61,183 nt of DNA, taken from contig CAMAYC010000013.1 in assembly GCA_945862125.1 (NCBI GenBank), positions 1 through 61,183 on the forward strand, in the 5' to 3' direction. Of this stretch, positions 1,316 to 7,540 are shown in pieces. The position numbers and the translations under genes are program-made. Within the stretch, counting starts at the first letter, position 1, and every line of letters begins with the position of its first letter. This DNA is from Reyranella massiliensis 521 (lineage in GTDB: Bacteria; Pseudomonadota; Alphaproteobacteria; Reyranellales; Reyranellaceae). Under the pieces are notes generated by a model. That model made no database searches, was not told the origin of the DNA, and saw only the letters and a program-made list of their open reading frames with translations.

Positions 1316-2134
1316 TCAGTCGGTCACGCGCACCGAGGCATCCACGGTCATCTTCGCGCCGCCGAAGCCGACGCGTCGGCCGCTGACCGGGGCCGCGTCG
1401 TGATAGTCGAGTCCCACCGCCACCCGCAGGCTGTCTCCGTGCGGGCTGATGTTGTTGGCGGGGTCGAAGCCCACCCATTCGAGGCCCGGGATCCAGGCCT
1501 CCGCCCAGGAATGGCTGGTGCGGCCGACATGCAGTTTGGGATCGTCGTTGCGCAGGTAGCCGCTGACGTAGCGCGCCGGCACCTCAAGCCTCCGGCAACA
1601 GGCGATAAACACATGCGCTTCGTCCTGGGCCACGCCGGCGCCGCGGGCCAGCGCCTCGACGGCCGTGGTGTCGACGGTGGAGACGCCGGTCTTGTAGGCG
1701 ATGCGTTTGCCGATGCGCTCCATGACCTCATGCAGGACCGCGACGCGCTGCGCGGGGTCGGCCGCCCGCTCGGCGAGGCCCTCGATCACCTGGTCGAAGC
1801 TGGCGTCGTGGCGGGCGAGCCCGACATTCCGCAGCCAGAACGGTGCCGGAAGCGTCGGCGTCTCGACATAGCGCAGCCACTGCTCGGTGCCGCTGTGTTC
1901 GTAGACGCCATGCACCGTGATCTCGACGCTGTCATGCCGGTACGCCGCCGAAAAAGTCGTCACCTGGTTGCCGTGCCCGTCGACCCATTCAGAGCGCTTG
2001 CCGGGACCGTCGATGCGCCAGGAGACGATGCGCTGGCCGGCGGCCGGCTTGGGGGTGAGCCGCACGTCGTGGATCGAATGGCCACTGGGCTGATCGAACT
2101 GGAAGCGCGTCGTGTGGTCGATGGTGAAGCGCAT
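1316..2134 (-). CDS. Transglutaminase-like protein with Ala in the catalytic Cys position
   Basis: A 272-residue cytosolic protein of the bacterial transglutaminase-like family (COG1305 type): an N-terminal beta-rich domain (residues about 1-100) followed by the papain-like core. The core normally reads GVCQD...AH; here residues 167-174 are GVAQDEAH, so the cysteine nucleophile is Ala169. The other triad positions look intact: His208 in SHSW and Asp224 in the GFDP segment. Two cysteines occur slightly later (179-180). It is the last gene of a three-gene operon, 6 bp after the alpha-E gene. By family it would be a peptidase or amide-bond remodelling enzyme; by residue it may be a non-catalytic partner. 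DNA was rechecked: the codon is GCC, not TGC. Confidence 0.85.
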   Translation of the reverse strand: MRFTIDHTTRFQFDQPSGHSIHDVRLTPKPAAGQRIVSWRIDGPGKRSEWVDGHGNQVTTFSAAYRHDSVEITVHGVYEHSGTEQWLRYVETPTLPAPFWLRNVGLARHDASFDQVIEGLAERAADPAQRVAVLHEVMERIGKRIAYKTGVSTVDTTAVEALARGAGVAQDEAHVFIACCRRLEVPARYVSGYLRNDDPKLHVGRTSHSWAEAWIPGLEWVGFDPANNISPHGDSLRVAVGLDYHDAAPVSGRRVGFGGAKMTVDASVRVTD

Positions 2135-2140
2135 GGCGGA

Positions 2141-3073
2141 TCAATCCAGCAGGAACTGGCGGCCGATTTCATCGGACAGCGTGGCGATGTCATCGCGCAC
2201 GCCGCCCAGGAACCTGGCGAGACCGATTTCGAAGATCCGGTCGACGCGCGCGTAGCGCAGCCGCGCGTGCAGCTCGCCGGCCAGCCGGTCGGCCTCGCCG
2301 CGCGTGCCGTAGGCGTCGGCGAGCTCGCGCATATTGAGGTCGACCATCCACAGGCAATGGTGCACCGAGCGCGGCACGTCGCGGCGCAGCATCATCAACT
2401 CGGCCACCTTCACCGGGTCGAGCGCGCTGCGATAGATGCGTCGGTAGGTGCGGACGGCGCCGATGCAGGCCAGCACCTCCGACCAGGCGAAATAGTCGGG
2501 CTTGTCGGCATGCGGGTTGCCGTCTGGCCGCAGCAGGTGAAACTTCACGTCGAGGATCCGGGCCGTATTGTCGCCGCGCTCGAGGAAGGCGCCGAGCTGC
2601 AGGAAATTGTAGGCCTCGTCGCGCAGCAGCGTGACCTGCGCTGCGCCAAAAATCATCACCGCCTGCTTCTTCACCGTCTCGATCAGCGCGCCGCGATCGA
2701 GCGTGGCGCGGTTGCCGCGCAGGCGGCTGCTGAGCTCCAGCCACAGCCCGTTCAGGCTTTCCCAGACGTCGACGGTGATGTTGTTGCGTTCCTCGCGGGC
2801 ATTGCTGCGGGCGGCCGAGATCGAGCTCACGATCGAGGAGGGGTTGCTCTCGTCCAGCACCAGGAAGTCGATGAGGCTGGCGAGGCGCCCGCCCTGCTGC
2901 TGGGTCTGGCGGAACTCGTCTTCCATGCCGAAGATCGCCGCCACACCCGCGGCCTCCTCGCCGCGCGACTGCAGGGCCATCCGCTGCGTGGCCTCGATCA
3001 GCCGCGCCGTCGACTTGGCGCGCTGCAGGTAGCGGCCCATCCAGTAGAGGTTCTTGGCGGTACTGCTCAGCAT
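2141..3073 (-). CDS. Alpha-E domain-containing protein
   Basis: A 310-residue, mostly helical protein beginning MLSSTAKNLYWMGRYLQRAK, the typical opening of the alpha-E (COG2307) family, whose N-terminal signature is an S-x-A-x-x-x-YW-x-GRY pattern. The family has no established biochemical activity. It is almost always encoded beside a circularly permuted ATP-grasp protein and a transglutaminase-like protein, as it is here (6 bp from the first, 6 bp from the second). Comparative genomics has suggested these trios make or process small peptide or amide products. No signal peptide or membrane segment is visible. Confidence 0.9.
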   Translation of the reverse strand: MLSSTAKNLYWMGRYLQRAKSTARLIEATQRMALQSRGEEAAGVAAIFGMEDEFRQTQQQGGRLASLIDFLVLDESNPSSIVSSISAARSNAREERNNITVDVWESLNGLWLELSSRLRGNRATLDRGALIETVKKQAVMIFGAAQVTLLRDEAYNFLQLGAFLERGDNTARILDVKFHLLRPDGNPHADKPDYFAWSEVLACIGAVRTYRRIYRSALDPVKVAELMMLRRDVPRSVHHCLWMVDLNMRELADAYGTRGEADRLAGELHARLRYARVDRIFEIGLARFLGGVRDDIATLSDEIGRQFLLD

Positions 3074-3079
3074 GCCGCG

Positions 3080-4522
3080 CTATCCGCCCGACCCGGCTTC
3101 CGGCGCCAGCACCCAGGTGTCCTTGGTGCCGCCGCCCTGGCTCGAATTGACGACCAGCGAGCCTTCCTTCAGCGCCACACGCGTGAGCCCGCCTGGAATG
3201 ATCGTGGTCTTGCGTCCCGACAAGACATAGGGACGCAGGTCGACATGGCGCGGCGCGACGCCCTGGCCGACGAAGGTCGGACAGGTCGAGAGCGCCAGGG
3301 TCGGCTGGGCGATGTAGTTGTCCGGCCGGGCGCGAATGAAGGCCGCGAAGGCCTCGATCTCCGCCTTGCTCGACGTCGGACCGACCAGCATGCCCTTGCC
3401 GCCGGAGCCGTGGACTTCCTTCACGACCAGTTCGGGCAGGTGTTCGAGCACGTACTTGTAGTCGTCGGGCCTGTCGCAGCGCCAGGTCGGCACGTTCTGC
3501 AGGATCGGCTCCTCGCCGAGATAGAAGCGGATCATCTCGGGAACGTAGGTGTAGGTCGACTTGTCGTCGGCCACGCCGTTGCCCAGCGCATTCACGATGT
3601 TGACCCGGCCGGCGCGGAGCGCGCCCAGGAGGCCCGCGACGCCCAGGAAGGAATCCGGCCGCATCGCCAGCGGATCGAGGAAGGCATCGTCGACGCGGCG
3701 ATAGATCACGTCGACCCGCTGCGGCCCGCGCGGCGTGCGCATGTAGACGCGGCCCTCGTCGACGAAAAGATCGGCGCCCTCGCAAAGGTCGATGCCCATC
3801 TCGTCGGCCAGGAAGGCGTGCTCGAAATAGGCGCTGTTGAAGTGGCCGGGCGTCAGCAACACGACCGTGGGCTCGGCATCGTCGCTGAACGACACCGACC
3901 GGAGCGTCGCCAGCAGTTCCTCCGAATAGTCGGCGACCGGCAGCACCCGCATGGCCGAGAACAGCTCCGGCGCCAGCCGCATCATCACTTCGCGGTTTTC
4001 CAGCACGTAGGAGACGCCCGACGGCGTGCGGACATTGTCTTCGAGGACGTAGAAGTCCTTTTCGCCCACGCGCACGAGATCGATGCCGGCGATATGGGCA
4101 TGCACGCCGCCGGGGAGGGTCAGGCCCTGCGCCATCGCGACGAATTCGCCGTTCATCAGGATCTGGGTCTCGGGGATCACGCCGGCGCGGCAGATCTCGC
4201 GCGCACCGTAGGCATCGACGAGAAAGGCGTTGAGCGCCTTCACGCGCTGCACCAGGCCCTTGTGCAGGTACTCCCACTCGTCCCAGGCGATGACGCGCGG
4301 AATGATGTCGAAGGGGATCGTCGTCTCATGGCCGTCGACCGCGCCGTAGGCGCCGAAAGTGATGCCGTGGCGGCGGTAGAACTGGTCGACCTCGTGGCGC
4401 GTCGCCGCCACCCGCTCGGGCGAGGTACGGGCGAGCCAGTTCGCGACACCGCGGTAGGGCGCACGGACCGATTCCCCGGCTCCGGTCCCAGAGTTCATTT
4501 CGTCAAATGCCTTGGCGGCCAT
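3080..4522 (-). CDS. Circularly permuted type 2 ATP-grasp protein
   Basis: A 480-residue member of the COG2308 family, predicted to use ATP to activate a carboxylate and form an amide or peptide bond. Visible family blocks include DNVRTPSGVSYVLENR near residue 150, NIVNALGNGVADDK near residue 310, VVKEVHGSGGKGM (a nucleotide-binding glycine loop) and DLRPYVLSG near the C-terminus. The start is placed at the ATG at 4520-4522 (MAAKAFDEMN); the open frame continues upstream to 4759 but would overlap the divergent dehydrogenase gene at 4623. It is the first gene of the operon with the alpha-E and transglutaminase-like genes. Substrates are unknown. Confidence 0.9.
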   Translation of the reverse strand: MAAKAFDEMNSGTGAGESVRAPYRGVANWLARTSPERVAATRHEVDQFYRRHGITFGAYGAVDGHETTIPFDIIPRVIAWDEWEYLHKGLVQRVKALNAFLVDAYGAREICRAGVIPETQILMNGEFVAMAQGLTLPGGVHAHIAGIDLVRVGEKDFYVLEDNVRTPSGVSYVLENREVMMRLAPELFSAMRVLPVADYSEELLATLRSVSFSDDAEPTVVLLTPGHFNSAYFEHAFLADEMGIDLCEGADLFVDEGRVYMRTPRGPQRVDVIYRRVDDAFLDPLAMRPDSFLGVAGLLGALRAGRVNIVNALGNGVADDKSTYTYVPEMIRFYLGEEPILQNVPTWRCDRPDDYKYVLEHLPELVVKEVHGSGGKGMLVGPTSSKAEIEAFAAFIRARPDNYIAQPTLALSTCPTFVGQGVAPRHVDLRPYVLSGRKTTIIPGGLTRVALKEGSLVVNSSQGGGTKDTWVLAPEAGSGG

Positions 4523-6313: not shown

Positions 6314-6865
6314 TCAGCTCTTCACGTCGGCGGCGACCTGGACCTTGATCATCTTGTCGGGCGGCGGCGCCACGGCGCCCGAGCCCGGCGCGCCCTTCTT
6401 GATCTTGTCGACGAACTCCATGCCCGACGTCACCTTGCCCCACACGGTGTACTGGCCGTCGAGGAAGTTCGAGTCCTTGAGCACGATGAAGAACTGGCTG
6501 CGCGCGCTGTTGGGATCGTTGGTGCGCGCCATGGAGACCGTGCCGCGCGTGTGCGGCGTCTTGGAGAACTCCGCCGGCAGCAGCTCGCCCATGCCGCCGC
6601 GGCCGGTGCCCTCGGGATCGCCGGTCTGGGCCATGAAGCCCTCGATCACGCGATGAAAGGCCACGCCATTGTACTTGCCTTCGCGGGCGAGCTTCTTGAT
6701 CTGGGCGACGTGCTTGGGCGCGAGGTTCGGCAGCATCTCGATGACGACGCGGCCGTCCTTGAGGTCGATGTAGAGGGTGTTCTCCTTGTCGGCGGCGCCG
6801 GCAGTGCCAGCGAATGACGAGAGGAGGGTGGCAGCGGCGATCGAGAAGAGGAACTTGCGGCGCAT
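6314..6865 (-). CDS. Secreted cyclophilin-type peptidyl-prolyl cis-trans isomerase
   Basis: A 183-residue cyclophilin that catalyses proline cis-trans isomerisation, here predicted to act in the periplasm. It has a signal peptide (MRRKFLFSIAAATLLSSFAG, cleavage after TAGA near residue 25) and the cyclophilin core with FHRVIEGFMAQTGDP (active-site Arg/Phe region) and QFFIVLKDSNFLDGQYTVWG. The start ATG at 6863-6865 lies 2 bp after the stop of the upstream paralogue, whose final codons supply an AAGGAG ribosome site. It is nearly a copy of the upstream gene apart from the signal peptide; DNA at 6398-6480 is identical to 6952-7034. Confidence 0.92.
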   Translation of the reverse strand: MRRKFLFSIAAATLLSSFAGTAGAADKENTLYIDLKDGRVVIEMLPNLAPKHVAQIKKLAREGKYNGVAFHRVIEGFMAQTGDPEGTGRGGMGELLPAEFSKTPHTRGTVSMARTNDPNSARSQFFIVLKDSNFLDGQYTVWGKVTSGMEFVDKIKKGAPGSGAVAPPPDKMIKVQVAADVKS

Positions 6866-7068
6866 GATCACTCCTTCGCGTCGGCGGCCACCTGGACCTT
6901 GATCATCTTGTCGGCGGGAGCGGATACGGCGCCCGAGCCACCAGCGCCGCGCTTGATCTTGTCGACGAACTCCATGCCCGACGTCACCTTGCCCCACACG
7001 GTGTACTGGCCGTCGAGGAAGTTCGAGTCCTTGAACACGATGAAGAACTGGCTGCGCGCGCTGTTGGG
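6398..7068 (-). repeat. Near-identical DNA blocks shared by the two cyclophilin genes
   Basis: Positions 6398-6480 equal 6952-7034 without mismatch (83 bp); after one substitution (6481/7035) a further 33 bp (6482-6514 / 7036-7068) are identical. Flanking parts of the genes have diverged more. This points to a tandem duplication with recent gene conversion. Confidence 0.85.
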
Positions 7069-7347
7069 GTCGTTGGTGCGGGCCATCGAGACCGAGCCGC
7101 GGACATGCGGCTCCTTCGAGAATTCCGCGTTCAGCAACTCGCCCATGCCGCCGCTGCCGGTACCGTTGGGGTCGCCGGTCTGGGCCATGAAGCCCTCGAT
7201 GACGCGATGGAAGACGATGCCGTCGTACTTGCCCTCGCGCGCCAGCTTCTTGATCTGGGCGACGTGCTTGGGAGCGAGGTCGGGGCGCATCTCGATGACG
7301 ACGCGGCCGTCCTTGAGATCGATATAGAGCGTGTTTTCCTTGTCCAT
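6868..7347 (-). CDS. Cytosolic cyclophilin-type peptidyl-prolyl cis-trans isomerase
   Basis: A 159-residue cyclophilin starting MDKENTLYIDLKDGR, with the same FHRVIEGFMAQTGDP and QFFIVFKDSNFLDGQYTVWG blocks as its downstream paralogue. The start at 7345-7347 (AGGAG 11 bases upstream) gives a leaderless cytosolic enzyme. The frame continues upstream to another ATG that would add MVPRRRTLFAGAAAV; that segment resembles a short remnant of an export signal, so an alternative start there cannot be excluded. Upstream in the pair, it reads directly into the secreted copy (2-bp gap), giving one compartment-split pair from one operon. Confidence 0.88.
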   Translation of the reverse strand: MDKENTLYIDLKDGRVVIEMRPDLAPKHVAQIKKLAREGKYDGIVFHRVIEGFMAQTGDPNGTGSGGMGELLNAEFSKEPHVRGSVSMARTNDPNSARSQFFIVFKDSNFLDGQYTVWGKVTSGMEFVDKIKRGAGGSGAVSAPADKMIKVQVAADAKE

Positions 7348-7540
7348 GACGGCAGCTGCTCCTGCGAACAAAGTGCGACGGCGCGGGACCATAGTGGCCG
7401 TTGGTCGAAAGACAAGCGGCAACTTGGTGGCGGCTCCCGGCGATGGCCGGTTGTGCATCGTTTGCCGTGGTTTTCGAGGCCCCGGTGGTTACAGTACCAG
7501 CCGGGTATTGTGGGAAGTCATTTTTTAAGCGGATTGGTCG

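Follow-up and report, generated by a model that had tools for sequence, protein, structure and literature searches.

The window analysed here, the whole stretch of 61,183 nucleotides from Reyranella massiliensis 521, carries three genes on the reverse strand in the order ATP-grasp, alpha-E and transglutaminase-like, separated by gaps of 6 bases, so that both partner genes lie upstream of the transglutaminase-like gene. The first of them (3080..4522, minus strand) encodes a circularly permuted ATP-grasp protein of about 480 aa (PF14403, E 4.1e-159), whose start position is uncertain and in which nearly all conserved columns are retained. It is followed by the gene for an alpha-E protein of 310 aa (2141..3073, minus strand; PF04168, E 3.3e-84), and the neighbours that the sequence-only reading had named are thereby confirmed. 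The third gene (1316..2134, minus strand) encodes a transglutaminase-like protein of 272 aa in which Pfam recognises two domains, Bact_transglu_N (E 1.7e-16, 61.1 bits against a cut-off of 27) and Transglut_core (E 8.1e-19, 68.3 bits against a cut-off of 23). Its Cys-His-Asp triad is incomplete. As the same reading had observed, the motif around the nucleophile position is GVAQD (G167-V168-A169-Q170-D171), residue 169 being encoded by a GCC codon at 1628..1630, with a sequence match at 1608-1636, and His208 (1511..1513) and Asp224 (1463..1465) are retained in translation and alignment. Two neighbouring cysteines, Cys179 and Cys180, are encoded at 1595..1600; the latter three codon positions, and those given below for alpha-E, all on the minus strand, were obtained by arithmetic.

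Operons of ATP-grasp, alpha-E and transglutaminase genes are widespread, often accompanied by the proteasome relative Anbu. The first three genes of the Anbu operon and their order, as set out in passages of PMC5666114 and PMC6376114, are common to that operon and the one described here, which differs from it in that the genome (a draft, 97.55% complete) yields no Anbu match, the triad is broken and Glu17 of alpha-E is replaced. The hypotheses on the function of the operon that are quoted in a section of PMC6376114, namely protein tagging by two amide-forming enzymes and the release of ammonia from transglutamination, presuppose an active transglutaminase.

The protein was modelled with AlphaFold2 on a 26-row alignment, with a pLDDT of 92.5 and a pTM of 0.91. 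The model has a helix spanning residues 169-182, a strand at 206-215 that contains His208 and a further strand at 219-224 that closes with Asp224, and this order of helix, His strand and Asp strand is usual for the transglutaminase fold. The best structure match, along the full length of the fold, is 3isr, a transglutaminase-like protein of Cytophaga hutchinsonii that has Cys at the nucleophile position (Z 24.4, 2.8 Angstrom, 244 of 272 residues, 21% identity). A transglutaminase fold devoid of activity is found in erythrocyte protein 4.2 (EPB42), which also carries Ala at the nucleophile site. Structures of EPB42 align with the model at Z 8.7, lower than the Z 10-11 of active transglutaminases, and the similarity to the Reyranella protein is distant, EPB42 being a large, multi-domain animal protein. 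Part of PMC10318531 lists EPB42 as catalytically inactive, together with the transglutaminase-type folds of FBXO21, Rad4 and menin. Inactive bacterial transglutaminase domains missing one or more of C, H and D occur in polymorphic toxins as well, and are proposed in passages of PMC3482391 to bind peptides; those domains are N-terminal parts of secreted toxins, whereas the Reyranella protein is a stand-alone operon protein.

Triad loss in the family, the class and beyond

How far does the loss of the cysteine extend? An alignment of homologues, as suggested along with the sequence-only reading, places Ala in 44 of 78 unique relatives, all of them close, and Cys in the other 34, among which are five more transglutaminase-like proteins that this genome encodes; this first search of relatives used peptide patterns taken from the protein itself and is therefore biased toward it. 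The survey of the family Reyranellaceae covered 75 genomes, in which places with at least 59% identity were fetched and read. Ala169 is present in 57 of 57 genomes of this genus (g1) with a readable operon copy; in one further g1 genome, G436, the contig stops short of residue 169. Ala169 is likewise found in the sister genus g280 (1/1). A second sister genus, g279, has Arg in place of Cys at residue 169 (3/3), and a third, g26, has Cys169 present and His208 replaced by Pro (3/3). In this operon lineage the triad is incomplete in all 64 copies that could be read, through three different lesions. At the level of sequence, these counts establish that the loss of Cys169 to Ala is fixed clade-wide and ancestral to g1.

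The family also includes genomes with a different complement. Three g1 genomes (G002, G003 and G009; loci L092, L093 and L094) have only a distant operon of 36-41% identity in which the triad is complete and Anbu adjoins, and which could be a replacement by transfer. The sole copy detected in G422 by the 75-genome search is distant too, its triad intact. No transglutaminase-like match at 1e-20 was obtained in 6 of the 75 genomes; one of the six, G016, gives two distant profile matches and has no alpha-E. Neither alpha-E nor the Ala-type gene was found in G005 and G016, both near-complete g1 genomes, indicating that the operon is dispensable, a point that counts against regarding the protein as a retained pseudoenzyme.

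Broken triads occur elsewhere in the class. The census of the class took alpha-E as its guide: 385 genomes were searched, 148 gave a match, and 120 alpha-E loci were fetched, 119 of them (118 genomes) among the matches listed and one from another alpha-E search; other listed places, most fused alpha-E genes and all unlisted places lie outside this census. Among the matches listed, a transglutaminase of at least 200 aa adjoins alpha-E at 70 of the 120 fetched loci, and 66 of these proteins are intact; the remaining four lack the Cys, its position being occupied by Tyr (two), Ser (one) or Pro (one). One of the Tyr cases, L155, comes from a draft genome in which ATP-grasp is split over two frames, and a sequencing error is therefore possible at its Tyr. 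Ser at the nucleophile site (L133, L291) might still be nucleophilic. In genus g14, counted here exclusive of G653, the Cys is absent in all four genomes read, with Gly in L097, Pro in L290 and L292 and Ser in L291; these loci have no Anbu within the fetched stretch and retain the ER motif of alpha-E. Outside the class, 18 of 18 transglutaminases at 17 fetched loci are intact, and for all 49 loci of that wider step the count is 47 of 50, the remaining three being those of g14. Asp224 is retained in every one of the 167 unique copies aligned. As a separate observation, 11 of the 50 loci without an adjacent transglutaminase (120 fetched, among the matches listed) are operons of ATP-grasp, alpha-E and Anbu in which no transglutaminase of at least 200 aa lies beside alpha-E (L134, L135, L137, L139, L141, L147, L164, L165, L166, L172 and L237).

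When the Cys and His columns are removed and the Ala clade is thinned, the resulting trees require at least six changes between intact and broken. Counted as triad states, there are 8 changes on a 122-row tree, from which the Asp column was also removed and in which 10 of 50 unique copies represent the Ala clade, and 10 changes on a 139-row tree; such counts alone give no direction of change. Titles and abstract openings in the open-licence literature turned up no paper that deals with loss of the triad in operons with alpha-E.

The partner proteins and Anbu

The partners were compared over columns at least 97% identical in operons with an intact triad. ATP-grasp has 106 such near-invariant columns, and 25 Ala-type operons retain 2610 of the 2650 cells, three Arg-type operons 314 of 318 and two Pro-type operons 210 of 212; one column per group is changed in all members (F280 to M, G298 to R, L358 to I). 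Alpha-E has 19 near-invariant columns, and two residues are lost in all 55 family operons. Glu17, present in 97 of 100 alpha-E proteins of intact-triad operons, is replaced by Gln in 49 Ala-type and three Arg-type operons and by His in three Pro-type operons; here it is Gln17, encoded at 3023..3025. Trp41, present in 98 of 100, is likewise lost throughout, and here the residue is Ala41 (2951..2953). Five other operons with a dead transglutaminase in the same column comparison have both Glu17 and Trp41. Alpha-E has two ER motifs. The first, Glu17-Arg18, reads QR in this genome; the second, Glu165-Arg166 (2576..2581), is retained and is identical in all 252 alpha-E rows, which include some genomes twice, as they were met in two collections. 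The PF04168 score is far above its cut-off. By eye, the two motifs of the alpha-E protein (2141-3073) stand in similar stretches, ERAENTARLLE-like near residue 17 and ERADNTARILD near residue 165, and alpha-E may be an internal duplication. A model of alpha-E (pLDDT 88.3) finds its best match at Z 9.4 and 6.0 Angstrom, a helical-bundle resemblance below the informative level of the tool, and a search by sequence for a solved relative returned none (best E 0.54).

At what point was Glu17 lost? Gln17 is found in 3 of the 100 intact-triad operons (L157, L160 and L163), and on a tree of alpha-E and ATP-grasp, which omits the transglutaminase as well as alpha-E columns 17 and 41, these three are the sister lineage of the family. 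Support is 100/99 for all of them together, 99/92 for the grouping of L163 and the family, and 100/100 for the family itself. The simplest order of events would be that Glu17 was lost while the triad and Anbu were present, and that Trp41 and the triad followed, the triad being broken in three ways. Neither the triad tree nor the alpha-E plus ATP-grasp tree fixes the branching of the three lesion types. Given that the loss of Glu17 has a single origin on the tree, its link to triad loss is without statistical weight. The idea that Glu17 loss is a general companion of triad loss was discarded, as L143, L155, L133, L174, L097 and L290-L292 retain Glu17.

Anbu is present in only 4 of the 75 family genomes, and in this operon lineage it is retained in one genome only, G453. 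In the class census, 66 of the fetched alpha-E loci adjoin an intact transglutaminase (among the matches listed), and 47 of these have Anbu within 3 kb; dead copies are mostly without it. Loss of Anbu could nevertheless not be shown to be the cause of triad loss: a broken triad is accompanied by Anbu at L143, L155, L174 and L107, and Anbu is missing within 3 kb in the fetched stretch from 31 unique intact copies that adjoin alpha-E. On the tree, the comparison of Anbu with triad state yields four independent supported pairs (median p 0.5), too few for a test.

The same genome carries a second cluster, on contig 91 of G000 (L098: 7180-14035), which comprises a GVCQD transglutaminase, a fused ATP-grasp-alpha-E protein of 851 aa and a transglutaminase-bearing protein of about 1134 aa; the transglutaminases of this cluster carry Cys. 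A second cluster with fused alpha-E is found in 18 of 19 Ala-type genomes examined and in 0 of 3 Anbu-bearing genomes of the genus. It may cover the catalytic need, in a division of labour with the Ala-type operon.

Constraint on the cysteine-less protein and its likely role

The Ala-type gene has a median dN/dS of 0.181 (49 sequences, 1176 pairs), and three Cys-bearing clades have medians of 0.175, 0.141 and 0.204 (8, 6 and 3 sequences), calculated after identical sequences were dropped and only from pairs with dS of 0.05-1.5. Measured against the divergence of its own ATP-grasp partner, the Ala-type gene stands at 1.76 and the Cys-bearing clades at 2.11, 2.34 and 2.79, where a single pair underlies the last value; measured against alpha-E, the gene stands at 1.33, higher than one intact clade (1.05) and lower than the other two (1.44 and 1.46). 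As far as coding sequences can tell, these values demonstrate that the Ala-type gene evolves under purifying constraint that falls inside the range seen in intact copies. Gln170-Asp171, Trp210 and Asn227 are each invariant in the Ala clade (58/58), and none of the 58 unique Ala-type copies has lost His208 or Asp224. Most unique intact copies (100 of 112) have His, Phe or Tyr at residue 172; in the Ala clade (n=58) this residue is E in 17, Q in 16, D in 9, S in 6, H in 6, T in 2 and A in 2, and this position beside the nucleophile looks relaxed there. Gly219, another near-invariant column, has changed to Glu or Asp in 47 of 50 of the Ala clade.

Could the protein still be a cysteine enzyme? The sequence-only reading had offered Cys179 or Cys180 as a nucleophile that took over, and had called for a structure model to see whether they reach His208. 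Cys180 is indeed invariant in the Ala clade (58/58), and few intact relatives have it (12 of 112 unique copies), but it occurs alongside an ordinary Cys169 in g26 (L107-L109), in most of the Verrucomicrobia copies fetched and in 3isr, and PNGase (2f4m) has Cys aligned at both 179 and 180 alongside its normal Cys; Cys180 therefore looks structural and appears to predate the loss. Cys179 is variable (C 45, A 12, S 1 in 58 unique Ala-clade copies). In the model both residues sit at the far end of the helix that starts at 169, 10-11 residues or about three turns from the site, a position that by ordinary helix geometry would put them some 15 Angstrom from residue 169, and a shifted nucleophile leaves the sister lesions Arg169 and Pro208 unaccounted for. 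We consider such a takeover very improbable. That Ala169 arose by sequencing or assembly error from a normal TGC codon is scarcely credible: it is refuted by the agreement of all 57 readable genomes of the genus, R. massiliensis 521 and E. aerosaccus ATCC 27094 (L019, L029) among them, and a change from Cys to Ala takes two base substitutions.

An activity that needs no cysteine and relies on His208 and Asp224, such as acid-base catalysis or catalysis assisted by a metal, would accord with the retention of both residues in every Ala-type copy and of the Asp in all copies aligned. It is, however, unlikely, given that g26 has lost His208 and kept its Cys, so that neither half is indispensable in the family, and that residue 172 drifts beside the site. 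Decay under way, which would make the gene a functionless relic of a module being lost, could draw on the additional loss of Glu17 and Trp41 in alpha-E, on the scarcity of Anbu and absence of the operon from some family genomes, and on the 50 of 120 fetched alpha-E loci (among the matches listed) that are without an adjacent transglutaminase of at least 200 aa, some of them cut by the end of the contig or stretch or having one upstream. Against it stand a dN/dS of 0.18 inside the range of intact clades, the absence of stop codons inside the matches and the retention of the gene through four genera. By these measures the Ala-type gene is not clearly decaying, and a relic is a rather doubtful explanation.

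The protein is homologous to enzymes, has lost a catalytic residue and is retained by selection (dN/dS 0.181, within 0.141-0.204), as pseudoenzymes are. It is probably a fixed pseudoenzyme that keeps its fold and cleft, and its predicted role is that of a scaffold or binding subunit next to a working ATP-grasp. This alternative, raised in the sequence-only reading, gains from the clade-wide fixation, the three lesions in one family, purifying selection as in intact clades and the retention of the operon. In such an operon the cysteine-type activity of the transglutaminase-like protein would be absent, ATP-grasp would still make an amide or peptide product, and the original hydrolase or transferase step would no longer be used. 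The dead protein would keep its place, either binding the product of ATP-grasp or holding ATP-grasp and alpha-E, because its N-domain and Gln170, Asp171, Trp210 and Asn227 are unchanged. ATP-grasp probably remains an enzyme, by analogy with its Yersinia homologue, which according to passages of PMC6376114 frees phosphate from ATP. The same passages describe a test in which the Anbu operon of Yersinia was co-expressed and Anbu served as bait; no specific interaction of the operon proteins was detected. This result counts against the pseudoenzyme reading that we favour, as do the retention of His208 and Asp224 in the Ala clade, which a pure scaffold would not need, and the divergence relative to alpha-E, which exceeds that of one intact clade.

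A more speculative proposal, which we advance tentatively, is that Glu17 and the triad serve one coupled reaction; loss of Glu17 would then have left the transglutaminase step without a purpose and freed the triad to break in three ways, with ATP-grasp working on and the dead transglutaminase acting as reader or carrier of the product. If true, the Reyranellaceae operon would be a naturally occurring form of the system with a single enzyme and a route to identifying its product. Triad loss that is family-wide in one lineage and repeated elsewhere suggests that catalysis is dispensable while the protein is retained, and singles out Glu17 of alpha-E as a residue of interest. Pseudoenzymes are common; repeated triad loss after a change in alpha-E provides a concrete handle on the chemistry of the operon. 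In lineages without the triad, annotation as a cysteine protease or transglutaminase is misleading.

Elsewhere in the window, at 6314-7458 on the minus strand, two adjoining and highly alike frames resemble, by eye, cyclophilin-type peptidyl-prolyl isomerases and are perhaps a recent tandem duplication.
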